From positions 1 through 64,000 of the forward strand of contig NZ_JACNME010000015.1 of assembly GCF_014270065.1 (NCBI RefSeq): DNA of 64,000 bases, written 5' to 3'. Origin of the DNA: Quadrisphaera sp. RL12-1S (GTDB taxonomy: Bacteria; Actinomycetota; Actinomycetes; Actinomycetales; Quadrisphaeraceae). The notes under the pieces are model-generated. The model made no database searches. It saw nothing but the letters and a program-made list of their open reading frames with translations, and was not told the DNA's origin. The position numbers were made by a program, and so were the translations under genes. This document shows, one piece after another, positions 17,235-34,848 of the stretch (the first letter of the stretch is position 1; each line of letters starts with the position of its first letter).

Positions 17235-17283
17235 GGTGCGCATGACGCCCATGATCACGGTGATCATGGGCGTCATGCGCACC
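17235..17283. repeat. Perfect 24-bp inverted repeat with GTGATCATG core
   Basis: Arms 17235-17258 and 17260-17283 are perfect reverse complements with a single base between them. The centre reads ATGATCAC-G-GTGATCAT. It starts 11 bases after the iolA stop (reading the minus strand) and could act as a terminator or mRNA stabiliser. It shares GTGATCATGGGCG with the repeat at 34798-34848. Confidence 0.9.
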
Positions 17284-31172: not shown

Positions 31173-32372
31173 GTGACGGAGGCGCTGGAGCGGCGCCTCC
31201 TGGTGCCGGGCAGCGCCCTGCTGTGGGGACTGCAGTTCGCCGTCCTCGTGCCCTCCCTCGCGCTGCTGCTGGTGGCCCTCTACGGGGCGACACCGGCCCA
31301 GGTCGGCTGGGTGCTCGCGGTCTACAACGGCGCCGGCTTCGTCGCGGCCCTCGTCGTCCCCGCGCTCGCCGACCGGCGCGGTGACTACCTCGCGCCGATG
31401 CTCGGCTGCGCCGTCCTCACCCTGCTGCTGGCGGCGGCGCTGTGGGCGGTGACGTCGCTGCCCCTGGCCGTGGTCGCCCTCGTGGTGCTCGGGGCCCCCG
31501 CGGGCGTGGGGGTGTCGCTCCTCTTCGCCCACCTGCGCTCGGAGGGAGCCGGCACCCCGCAGGTGACGAGGGTGCGGGCCCTGGTCTCGTTCGCGTGGGT
31601 CGCGGGGCCGCCACTGGCCGCGTTCCTCATCGCCGGTGCCGGAGAGCGCGCGGTGCTGCCGGCGCTGGCCGTGCTCGCCGTGCTCAACGGCCTGACGACC
31701 GCGGCCCTCGTGGCCCGCCGCCGGCGCCGGCTCGCCGAGGGCGTCCCGACAGCGGGCGCCCCCGACGACGCCATCGCCGTCTCCCGCGGCGGCGTGCTGG
31801 TGGTGGCCCTCGGCTTCGTGCTGCTGCAGTCCGCGAACGCCACGGTGGTCTCGGTGATGGCGCTGTTCACCACCCGCGACCTCGGGCTGGACGTGGTCTG
31901 GTCGGGCGTCGCGCTCGGGGTGGCGGCTGCCGCGGAGGTCCCGGCGCTGCTGCTGCTCGGTCGGGTGGGCCGCCGCTCCTCGGACCTGGCGCTGGTCGTG
32001 TCGGACAGCGCCGTGGGGGTCCTGTACTTCCTGCTCATGGCCGTGGTGACCGGCCCCGTGGGCCTGGTGTCGGTGCAGCTGCTCAACGCCTGGTCGTTCG
32101 CGGTCATCGCCGGCACGGGGCTCGGGCTCTTCCAGAGGGTCGTGGCCCGCCCCGGGCTCGCGTCGGGGCTCTACGCCAACACCCGACGCCTCGGCGGAGT
32201 GGTCAGCGGCCCGGTCGTCGGGCTCGGCGGGGCGACGACGTGGGGGTACGGCGCGGCGTTCCTCGTCTGCGCAGGGCTCACGGCGCTCGGTGTGCTGCTC
32301 GTGGCGCTCGCGCTGCGGACCGCCTCCCCCTCCTCCGCGGCGGGCGCGGGGGTCACCGCAGGGGGACGTTGA
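31173..32372 (+). CDS. MFS transporter, sugar-efflux type
   Basis: This membrane protein (399 aa) has about twelve hydrophobic helices and an MFS loop between helices 2 and 3 (ADRRGDYLAP). The pattern resembles SetB-type sugar transporters (LLFAHLRSEG, then GLYANTRRLGGVVSGPVVG). It may move inositol or a sugar, in or out. The GTG at 31173 is preceded by GGGGAG. It follows the LacI gene on the same strand, and its last 20 bases overlap the convergent LacI gene at 32353-33453. Direction of transport cannot be read from the sequence. Confidence 0.85.
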   Translation: MTEALERRLLVPGSALLWGLQFAVLVPSLALLLVALYGATPAQVGWVLAVYNGAGFVAALVVPALADRRGDYLAPMLGCAVLTLLLAAALWAVTSLPLAVVALVVLGAPAGVGVSLLFAHLRSEGAGTPQVTRVRALVSFAWVAGPPLAAFLIAGAGERAVLPALAVLAVLNGLTTAALVARRRRRLAEGVPTAGAPDDAIAVSRGGVLVVALGFVLLQSANATVVSVMALFTTRDLGLDVVWSGVALGVAAAAEVPALLLLGRVGRRSSDLALVVSDSAVGVLYFLLMAVVTGPVGLVSVQLLNAWSFAVIAGTGLGLFQRVVARPGLASGLYANTRRLGGVVSGPVVGLGGATTWGYGAAFLVCAGLTALGVLLVALALRTASPSSAAGAGVTAGGR

Positions 32373-33453
32373 ACCGCGTCACCACCTGGACCGGGGCCGC
32401 CCACGACCGCGGCGGGCCGGGCAGCCCCCCGCGGGACTGCAGGAGCACGCGCGCGGCGCGGCGCAGGTGCGTGCGCAGGTCGTGGTGGAGCACCGCGGAG
32501 ACCCGGCCGGCGCGCAGCAGCGCCAGGTGCTCGGCGGCGAGGTCGTGGACGACGACGACGCGCGGCTCCTGCCCGTGCCGCGCGAGCGCGTCGAGCACGG
32601 CGGTGGCGCCGCCCGCACCGGCGTACATCGCGTAGACGGCCCCGACGCCTCCGCCCGCGTCGTCGTCCTCGAGGGTCTCGCGCAGGTCGTCGAGCACTGC
32701 GCGGGAGCGGGTCTCGTCGTCGCGGACTTCCAGCACGCGCCGCGGGCCGAGCACCTCGGCGAACCCGGCGGCGCGCTCGTCCTCACCCAGGTCCACCCCG
32801 CTGCTGCGGACCACGAGCACTGCCTGCCTGTGGTGATCATGCAGAAGACCCGCACTGCGCTGCTCGGGGTGCGGGTCTTCTGCATGATCACCGATGTGGT
32901 CGAGCGGGCCCAGCCACTGGTCGACGAGGTGGGCCGCGGTCCGGCCGGCACCGCGGTTGTCCAGCCCCACGTACGCCGCCCGCTCGGAGCCCGGCAGGTC
33001 GGTGACCAGGGTGACCACGGGTACCCCGGCCTCGGCCAGCCGACCGACGGCGGCCACCACGTCGGGGTGCAGCGGCGCCTTGAGGACCACGCCGTCGGAG
33101 CGGGCCGTCGCAGCCCCGCGCAGCGCCGCCACCACGGGGGCGGGGTCCGAGCCGTCGAGCAGGTGGAAGCGCGCCCTCACGACCGCGGGCCGCAGGCCGG
33201 GCAGCTCGGCCTCCAGGGCCGTGCGCACCTCCACGGAGAAGCGCAGCGGGGCCTGGACCACCACGTCGAGCACCCAGGTGCGCCCGCCGAGCTGCAGCTG
33301 GTCGGCCTGGCGCTGCAGGTCGGCGACGGCCCGCTCCACCTGCCGGGCGGTGGAGGGCCGCACGCCGGGGCGGCCGTGCAGCACCCGGTCGACGGTGGCC
33401 TCGGACAGGCCGGCCTGAGCGGCGATCTCACGCACGCGGAAGGGGTGGCGCAC
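32353..33453 (-). CDS. LacI-family regulator with palindrome-encoded insertion
   Basis: This 366-residue regulator has the LacI helix-turn-helix (VREIAAQAGLSEATVDRVLHG, residues 7-27) and a sensor domain ending VQVVTRFNVPLR. Residues about 188-208 (GDHAEDPHP...LLHDHH) are encoded by the large inverted repeat 32832-32892. They interrupt the segment between QWLGP and VLVVRSSG, where this family normally has only a short loop. The frame stays open, so the protein is longer than usual by about 20 residues but not broken. The GTG at 33453 gives the standard N-terminus. It is divergent from the dioxygenase gene and probably controls that operon. Confidence 0.85.
   Translation of the reverse strand: MRHPFRVREIAAQAGLSEATVDRVLHGRPGVRPSTARQVERAVADLQRQADQLQLGGRTWVLDVVVQAPLRFSVEVRTALEAELPGLRPAVVRARFHLLDGSDPAPVVAALRGAATARSDGVVLKAPLHPDVVAAVGRLAEAGVPVVTLVTDLPGSERAAYVGLDNRGAGRTAAHLVDQWLGPLDHIGDHAEDPHPEQRSAGLLHDHHRQAVLVVRSSGVDLGEDERAAGFAEVLGPRRVLEVRDDETRSRAVLDDLRETLEDDDAGGGVGAVYAMYAGAGGATAVLDALARHGQEPRVVVVHDLAAEHLALLRAGRVSAVLHHDLRTHLRRAARVLLQSRGGLPGPPRSWAAPVQVVTRFNVPLR
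32832..32892. repeat. Perfect 24-bp inverted repeat inside LacI coding sequence
   Basis: Arms 32832-32855 and 32869-32892 are perfect reverse complements with a 13-base loop. The outer ends read GGTGATCATG, shared with the repeats at 17235-17283 and 34798-34848, while the inner part of the stem is different. It lies wholly inside an open LacI reading frame and is translated. Confidence 0.92.
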
Positions 33454-33570: not shown

Positions 33571-34794
33571 ATGACCGCCACCCCGCTGCGCCCCACCTCC
33601 TCGACGCCACCGGCGCGCACGCGCGTCCCCACCGGCTGGTACTCCCCCGCCGACTGCTCCCTCGACGACTTCCGGTCGATCGTCGAGGGGGGCCTGGCCG
33701 AGACGTCCCTGGACGACCACCCGTACGCCGACGCGCTCGAGCAGGGCGTGCTCGTCTACGGCTCCCGGTTGCGCGAGCACACGACCACGGCCGAGGGCCG
33801 GCGCGACGTGCAGGCCGAGCTGGCGCGGGCCCTGGCGGACGGGCCCGGGATCGTGGTGTTCAAGGGCGCCTTCGACCACGACGACGTCGACCGCGCGACG
33901 GGCGTCTTCGCCGCGATGATCGAGGAGCAGAGGGCCGCGGGCACGGCCTCCGGGGACCACTTCGCCAAGCCCGGCGCCAACGACCGGGTGTGGGGCGCGC
34001 TGGACAAGCTGGCCGTGCGCGCCCCGGAGGTGTTCGCCCGCTACTACGCCAACGACGTCCTGGCCCTCGTCTCCGAGGCCTGGCTGGGCCGCGGCTACCA
34101 GGTGACCTCGCAGGTCAACGTGGTCAACCCCGGCGGCCAGGCGCAGACCGCGCACCGCGACTACCACCTGGGGTTCATGGACCAGGCGCAGGCGCTGGGC
34201 TACCCGGCCCAGGTGCACGCGCTCTCCCCGGTGCTCACGCTCCAGGGGGCGGTGGCGCACGTCGACATGCCGGTCGAGACCGGCCCGACGCTGTACCTGC
34301 CGCACTCGCAGAAGCACCCCGCCGGCTACATCGCCTTCCACCGGCGCGAGTTCACCCAGTACTTCCTCGAGCACTCCGTGCAGCTGCCGCTGGCCAAGGG
34401 CGACGCGGCCTTCTTCAACCCCGCCCTGTTCCACGGCGCCGGCACCAACCGGAGCACCGACGTGCGCCGCATGGCCAACCTCCTCCAGGTGTCGTCGGGG
34501 TTCGGCCGGGCGATGGAGGACGTCGACCGGGTGGCGGCCTCGAAGGCGCTGTTCGGCGCGCTGAGCGCCCAGAAGGCGGCGGGGGTGGACGAGCGGTCGC
34601 TGCGCAACGTCGTGGCGGCCTCGGCGGAGGGCTACGCCTTCCCGACCAACCTCGACAGGGACCAGCCGATCGACGGTCTGGCACCGCAGACCCAGGCCGA
34701 GCTGGTCTGGCAGGCGCTGTCCGAGGGGTGGGACGCCGCGCGCTTGGAGGAGGCCCTCGACGCCCAGGCCGCCCGCCGCCGCTCCGCCGTCTGA
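33571..34794 (+). CDS. Phytanoyl-CoA dioxygenase (PhyH)-family Fe(II)/2-oxoglutarate oxygenase
   Basis: This 407-residue protein belongs to the PhyH family of iron/2-oxoglutarate oxygenases. The metal triad is visible: His195 and Asp197 in TAHRDYHLGF, and His288 in NPALFHGAGTNRS, followed by an Arg that would hold 2-oxoglutarate. It lies at the head of a plus-strand group with iolG, a sugar isomerase and iolE, and beside inositol-type regulators, so its substrate is likely an inositol derivative. Oxidative demethylation of O-methyl-inositols such as pinitol is one idea; hydroxylation of another cyclitol is another. The ATG at 33571 follows GAGAGGC. A perfect inverted repeat begins four bases after the stop. 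Confidence 0.88.
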   Translation: MTATPLRPTSSTPPARTRVPTGWYSPADCSLDDFRSIVEGGLAETSLDDHPYADALEQGVLVYGSRLREHTTTAEGRRDVQAELARALADGPGIVVFKGAFDHDDVDRATGVFAAMIEEQRAAGTASGDHFAKPGANDRVWGALDKLAVRAPEVFARYYANDVLALVSEAWLGRGYQVTSQVNVVNPGGQAQTAHRDYHLGFMDQAQALGYPAQVHALSPVLTLQGAVAHVDMPVETGPTLYLPHSQKHPAGYIAFHRREFTQYFLEHSVQLPLAKGDAAFFNPALFHGAGTNRSTDVRRMANLLQVSSGFGRAMEDVDRVAASKALFGALSAQKAAGVDERSLRNVVAASAEGYAFPTNLDRDQPIDGLAPQTQAELVWQALSEGWDAARLEEALDAQAARRRSAV

Positions 34795-34797
34795 CCC

Positions 34798-34848
34798 CCG
34801 TGATCATGGGCGGTCGGACACCTGGTGGCCGACCGCCCATGATCACGG
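34798..34848. repeat. Perfect 20-bp inverted repeat with GTGATCATG ends
   Basis: Arms 34798-34817 and 34829-34848 are perfect reverse complements around an 11-base loop. The outer end is CCGTGATCATGGGCGG. It begins four bases after the dioxygenase stop and ends 12 bases before the -35 of the next promoter, so it could be a terminator insulating the two. Related repeats are at 17235-17283 and 32832-32892. Confidence 0.9.

Follow-up and report, generated by a model that had tools for sequence, protein, structure and literature searches.

A REP-like palindrome inserted in frame in a LacI-family gene of Quadrisphaera and its possible pairing with a DUF559 nuclease gene

A LacI-family regulator gene of Quadrisphaera sp. 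RL12-1S carries in its reading frame a member of a palindromic repeat family of the genus. Two palindromes of the same type bound a gene of the DUF559 type, and repeats are found in excess at the flanks of DUF559-type genes. Whether the lacI segment is a solo copy of a REP-like palindrome family whose partner enzyme is a nuclease and not a RAYT is in our judgement an evenly balanced question. The spread of REP-like palindromes where RAYTs are missing still calls for an explanation, and DUF559 has no assigned function. A causal pairing would provide a mechanism for the spread of the palindromes and a function for DUF559, and it predicts that the cognate palindrome is cut. The lacI alleles can also be seen as a natural experiment in which a terminator-like palindrome becomes protein sequence.

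The lacI gene and its palindrome

The window (the whole stretch of DNA that was analysed, 64,000 nucleotides) holds the gene, its neighbours and the palindrome at these positions:

31173..32372, plus strand: convergent MFS transporter gene, its 3' end overlapping the lacI 3' end by 20 bp
32353..33453, minus strand: gene of a LacI-family regulator, with the palindrome in its reading frame (Pfam and orthologue comparison)
32832..32855, plus strand: left arm of the palindrome, 24 nt
32856..32868, no strand: centre of the palindrome, 13 nt between the arms
32869..32892, plus strand: right arm of the palindrome, full complement of the left arm
33571..34794, plus strand: divergent PhyH gene, with the next gene (Gfo/Idh/MocA) the synteny marker of the locus across the genus

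The lacI gene starts with GTG and codes for a product of 366 amino acids, in which the Pfam families LacI (PF00356) and Peripla_BP_4 (PF13407) are both over cut-off. The initial annotation described a 61-base perfect palindrome at 32832-32892, translated in frame inside this gene. The palindrome is real, with coordinates, frame and flanking residues as given; it lies wholly within the gene, and the reading frame is open with no internal stop. The word perfect applies to the two 24-nt arms, which are 100% complementary, but not to the 13-nt centre, which is largely unpaired. LacI residues 188-208 are the translation of the palindrome, GDHAEDPHPEQRSAGLLHDHH.

Hairpins were scored in 864 kb of genus DNA, consisting of the window and 40 stretches, each 20 kb long (774,761 bases predicted as coding and 89,239 non-coding). 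At a score of at least 18 there is one hairpin in predicted genes, the lacI one, against 34 in non-coding DNA, and palindromes closely similar to it recur elsewhere in the same genome; the lacI palindrome is thus more than a chance structure. A known RNA family was considered for the hairpin and rejected, the three matches (E 0.0047, 0.04 and 0.49) being all far under the gathering scores.

The predicted LacI model has a mean pLDDT of 65.3, which is low confidence, and shows residues 185-207 unstructured with a helix on one side and a strand on the other. This is in line with the proposal that the extra segment forms a loop; as the model is poor, the placement of the loop is indicative only.

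Alleles with and without the insert

The genus set consists of six genomes: G000 (Quadrisphaera sp. RL12-1S, the source of the window), G008, G009, G010, G011 and G012. The named relatives closest to the source genome are Quadrisphaera sp. INWT6, 'Streptomyces' sp. NP160 and an Actinomycetales MAG; NP160 is apparently misnamed and falls within Quadrisphaera in genome searches. Orthologues of lacI are found in five of the six genomes, the exception among them being G008, and they make six alleles with the two copies of G010. The adjoining PhyH and Gfo genes are syntenic in all six. Pairwise dN/dS lies between 0.14 and 0.28 in 15 of 15 pairs, and by this measure lacI is still under purifying selection.

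The insert lies between the segments ...VDQWLG and VLVVRS..., which are 29 residues apart in G000 and 27 in both G011 and G012. The insert-free linkers have 8 residues in G009 and 10 and 9 in the two G010 copies, so the short loop that was said to part these segments normally is indeed found. It had also been proposed that an insertion would show up as some 60 bases missing from orthologues with similar flanks; about 57-63 nt are absent from G009 and from both G010 copies, while flanking identity is good and synteny is kept. Because these three syntenic alleles have no insert, and linkers of 8-10 as against 29 codons, we conclude from the alignment that the palindrome was inserted in frame into a variable loop of 8-10 codons in the LacI sensor domain and was tolerated. 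The three carriers have an identical reading frame, and the position of the left side agrees within one codon. No target-site duplication could be read at the insert, the linker being too variable among the alleles.

By symmetric count 4 of 24 pairs are mismatched in G011 and 5 in G012; G000 has one mismatched pair, in the centre. The perfect arms of G000 favour a copy which is recent, refreshed or maintained in that genome. The initial annotation held that orthologues having the extra residues without DNA palindromy would speak against an insertion. G011 and G012 do carry the residues, but their palindrome is decayed, not absent. The difference between perfect and decayed arms would also suit a recruitment of the in-gene copy as an attenuator or terminator, either in the lacI mRNA or in an antisense transcript of the MFS gene. 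The 20-bp overlap of the MFS and lacI 3' ends, present in G000 and G012, leaves no room for an intergenic terminator. However, the MFS neighbour is missing in G011, which does have the insert, and neither G009 nor either G010 copy has an insert; we regard recruitment as very unlikely.

A tree from the flanks of three shared sites joins G000 to G009 with a split support of 98, and G011 to G012 with 100. The tree of lacI itself has poor resolution; in the PhyH tree one G010 copy groups with G011/G012 (support 100). Set against the distribution of the insert, these trees would be compatible with two gains in the one loop, with one gain and at least two losses, or with recombination. It should be noted that G010 (NP160, filed as Streptomyces) has two diverged lacI-PhyH-Gfo clusters, on C102 and C132; one of them is nearer to G011/G012 by PhyH, and this suggests a transfer.

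The palindrome family in the genus

The DNA search found lacI-type palindromes in at least 60 places in all six genomes; among the places listed 8 are in G000, 12 in G008, 10 in G009, 6 in G010, 13 in G011 and 11 in G012. Places were accepted down to E ~0.004. Two weak G000 matches (on C9 and C2) were dropped, and eleven more weak model matches in G000, all intergenic, stand outside the count. An exact 15-mer of the palindrome was looked for in 198 genomes of the order and is present in 6, each of which belongs to the genus. A covariance-model search of 59 genomes of the order gave matches in 39 (E <=0.1), those outside the genus having at most 50 bits; the latter, of which one sequence (from G007) was inspected, are taken as generic terminator-like hairpins and not as members.

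According to a codon-based gene caller 57 of the 60 listed places are intergenic, with 33 between convergent, 23 between tandem and 1 between divergent gene pairs. The only places in genes among the 60 are the lacI sites of three species (G000, G011, G012). A genome search for further palindromes, suggested in the initial annotation, thus finds closely similar copies, those in genes being limited to lacI. The view of a mobile palindrome in the gene stands in so far as a member of a repeat family has been inserted. With one gene hit, 57 of 60 listed places intergenic and many conserved orthologous sites, it is not an element that jumps freely into genes.

Pairing was analysed in 57 of the 60 listed copies, three half or short copies being left out. 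It is kept in 86.9% of cells, and 19 of 28 pairs have changed on both sides (0/500 shuffles). The spacing of the arms is near-constant across unlinked copies, and the inner stems vary from copy to copy yet remain palindromic. Most stems fold with about -35 to -69 kcal/mol, and many intergenic copies form a stable hairpin just 3' of stop codons, within tens of bases.

Three groups of copies are found at the same place in all six genomes, which points to slow spread; others are common to two or three genomes. In a comparison made for concerted evolution, two copies from one genome resemble each other slightly more than two from different genomes (difference 0.016, 0/2000 permutations), and the likeness of orthologous copies (0.765) is barely higher than that of non-orthologous ones (0.747). 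One fixed site, G000:C4:436854 with its orthologues (L090, L175-L180), has a lacI-type palindrome in G000, G009 and G010 and a near-identical ACGAGGGCCCCTCCACCGCGCGGTGGAGGGGCCCTCGT palindrome, quite different from the lacI type, in G008, G011 and G012. Palindromes are thus exchanged at fixed chromosomal sites.

These properties could be explained without a dedicated enzyme if the palindromes are a genus-specific bidirectional terminator under selection, and if the lacI copy arose by chance recombination or a template switch. Such a terminator would account for the high share of convergent places (33 of the 57 listed intergenic copies, against 83 of 517 background gaps of at least 20 bp in the 864-kb sample), for the stability of the stems and their nearness to stops, for the compensatory changes and the old orthologous sites, and for the one site at which three genomes have the lacI type and three another palindrome. 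Template switching is able to create and repair hairpins (PMC8794818). The terminator explanation leaves unaccounted for the recurrence at unlinked sites, the near-constant arm spacing, the sister family's 31/32-bp iterons in tandem and inverted order and the flank repeats of DUF559 genes, both described below, and by eye there is no clear T-run after the stems. We consider it rather unlikely.

The sister family

A second, more abundant family, here called TGATCATGGGC, has the outer TGATCATG in common with the lacI-type family. It was counted 27 times over 464 kb of G000, and 200 kb each of G009 and G011 hold 2 and 5 copies. The half-sites occur as 31/32-bp tandem pairs, as inverted pairs in either orientation, and as pairs bounding 0.2-1 kb of DNA. 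In the window we find:

34798..34848: related palindrome of the other abundant family, situated between PhyH and Gfo, with outer arm CGTGATCATGGGC and an inner stem of a different kind
17235..17283: second TGATCATGGGC-family palindrome, with half-sites in the opposite (inside-out) arrangement

At L227:2849-3835 a gene which we take to be hisF-like has tandem pairs of the TGATCATG iteron at each end, an arrangement also seen for the DUF559-type gene of locus L217. At L240:7290-7560 and L220:18014-18230 inverted tandem iterons enclose units of about 0.2 kb in which there is no large gene; these are possibly deleted forms of larger cassettes.

DUF559 genes and their flanking repeats

In G000, G011 and G012 two lacI-type palindromes bound both ends of a DUF559 gene, the palindrome centres lying 25-39 nt from the ends of its stop-to-stop open frame. 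The left palindrome of the G000 cassette is degenerate, with 6 mismatched pairs of 24. The neighbours of the cassette presumably are a DinG-type helicase and HflX, which they resemble. In G009 and G010 this interval is taken up by another DUF559-like gene, which runs the opposite way and comes with other palindromes; G008 has a 5'-truncated DUF559-like gene with a palindrome after the gene. Among the genomes having a lacI orthologue, a small number, the lacI insert is present in 3 of 3 with the cassette and in 0 of 2 without it.

The palindrome might also be a MITE of an ordinary insertion sequence in the genus, being short, palindromic and repeated with one polymorphic insertion in a gene. 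No transposase is evident, however, among the neighbouring proteins of the three loci examined, the gene between two lacI-type copies is DUF559, no target duplication can be read in the variable linkers, and inner stems which differ and stay palindromic are unlike an internally deleted insertion sequence. A MITE thus seems improbable.

PF04480 has 22 matches in the six genomes; the interval genes of G009 and G010 are just under the DUF559 cut-off, and Pfam gave no family for the L217 protein. Three genes of the interval described above (the key interval) and two more that came from the sample, among them L217 with its bounding TGATCATGGGC pairs, bring the number of DUF559-type genes to 27. A left/right flank repeat score of at least 18 is reached by 15 of these 27 and by 7 of 325 control genes (Fisher 2.6e-14); the controls were not chosen to represent accessory genes, which is the main weakness of the comparison. 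Of 80 controls that have a gap of 60 bp or more on each side, 3 share flank repeats, as against the 15 of 27. When independent loci are defined by flanking homology, 9 of 12 qualify in at least half of their genomes, and two of these nine (the key interval and L217) had been found via the repeats. In the key interval the score reaches the required 18 in G000 (19), G011 (22) and G010 (18), but not in G012 (17, just under the limit), G009 or G008.

At G000:C3:32893 (L202) a DUF559 gene lies between near-identical direct repeats of about 100 bp, each holding a palindrome. Two distant DUF559-like plasmid genes were examined; the one in Arthrobacter is flanked (score 22 and a palindrome), the one in Nonomuraea is not. 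On the plasmid of Arthrobacter sp. StoSoilB13, outside the genus, an unannotated DUF559-like gene (L260, 543924-549502) has repeats shared between its flanks and a palindrome with a 27-bp stem. Judged by titles and abstracts, none of the DUF559 literature found is on repeats, in a search that was thin in subscription papers.

A search with one sequence showed 6 of the 60 listed lacI-type palindromes to adjoin a relative of the cassette DUF559 gene. At least 12 lacI-type palindromes in G008, at least 10 in G009 and at least 6 in G010 occur in genomes without a cognate DUF559 gene in the interval, so the number of copies is not tied to the presence of the gene. Where the genomes were sampled, six other flank repeats gave 0 or 1 exact copies in the sample, and most flank repeats are thus not dispersed.

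The DUF559 protein

Residues D216, E227 and D229 are invariant and E184 nearly invariant across the 27 DUF559-type proteins. The predicted model of the cassette protein has a pLDDT of 91.6. Its residues 178-286 match I-Bth0305I (Z 11.9, 97 residues, 3.0 A) and Vsr (Z 11.4, 103 residues, 2.4 A), and residues 1-176 match an AbiEi antitoxin (Z 11.1, 150 residues, 4.3 A); the N-terminal part also matches nucleotidyltransferase toxins with Z up to 10.2. Foldseek alone gave no match to the model at E < 0.001. The protein is predicted to consist of an AbiEi-like N-domain and a Vsr-like PD-(D/E)XK nuclease domain. A Caulobacter DUF559 protein has been described as Vsr-like (PMC12907096).

A model for the spread of the palindromes

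The model supposes that the Quadrisphaera palindrome is an inverted pair of half-units of about 31 bp with the consensus half TGATCATGCAGAAGACCCGCAC, and that the cassette is built as palindrome, DUF559 gene, palindrome. The nuclease would recognise its cognate repeat, or the hairpin formed by the repeat, and cut. Repair or template switching would then copy the palindrome to new sites and keep the arms matched, so that copying by the nuclease may be compared with the role ascribed to RAYT proteins for REPs. A solo copy would have been inserted in frame into the variable loop of lacI and tolerated there. After the stops of convergent genes the symmetric hairpin could terminate both genes.

The position of the DUF559 gene between the repeats and the joint change of gene and repeat type suggest a causal role for the nuclease. 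The copies without a cognate gene, the bounded hisF-like gene and the undispersed flank repeats speak against it. In its widest form the model states that actinobacterial DUF559 (AbiEi/Vsr-like) nuclease genes are the autonomous members of a REPtron-like system, in which each has its own palindromes at its ends, recognises them, exchanges them at fixed chromosomal sites and sometimes spreads them as solo copies, one of these being now in a LacI protein; a homing-type nuclease would stand in for the RAYT. This wider form we put forward tentatively, as possible and somewhat short of an even chance.

Comparison with known systems

RAYT genes are bounded by their own palindromes. The lacI-type palindromes resemble the REP/RAYT system in being dispersed intergenically after genes (57 of 60 listed places, 33 of them convergent), and in that an enzyme gene, here DUF559 in place of a RAYT, is flanked by its own palindromes. 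The bounded gene is different, since its product has an AbiEi/Vsr-like fold with a PD-(D/E)XK site and is not a HuH enzyme. RAYT (Y1_Tnp, PF01797) was found in 0 of 6 genus genomes, the control rings being positive in 5 of 14, and a RAYT-driven REP was ruled out as mobiliser. By eye no conserved GTAG/CGTC tag is present in the 57 aligned copies. By analogy the lacI palindrome may work like REP/RAYT; with no RAYT and no tag it is not a member of that system. REPs are short palindromes, single or in dimers, that lie for the most part 3' of genes, in tandem or convergent gaps, with some in genes (PMC3733652), and REP repeat types and RAYT enzyme types co-evolve (PMC8266576).

The initial annotation likened the insert to the palindromic elements of Rickettsia proteins (RPEs), which are about 150 bp long, occur in unrelated genes and are nearly half in ORFs (PMC10969869). 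In both cases a palindromic repeat has been inserted in frame in a protein gene, but the Quadrisphaera element has 61 bp and affects one gene (orthologous lacI, 3 of 60 listed places) in a family that is otherwise intergenic. With one gene only it is not an RPE, and the likeness is one of analogy only.

The pneumococcal SPRITE is a terminator-like repeat with 30 copies, enriched near gene 3' ends (PMC3049150). It shares with the present family the terminator-like form and the low copy number. SPRITE is AT-rich with a U-rich tract, whereas the Quadrisphaera palindromes are symmetric and rich in GC, and their family is linked to a nuclease gene.

The genes of I-Bth0305I and Vsr are found in an intron or beside a methylase gene. 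The C-terminal domain of the DUF559 protein is like these two in predicted fold and in its conserved acidic residues; the DUF559 gene differs from them in that it also codes for an AbiEi-like N-domain and lies between palindromic repeats.
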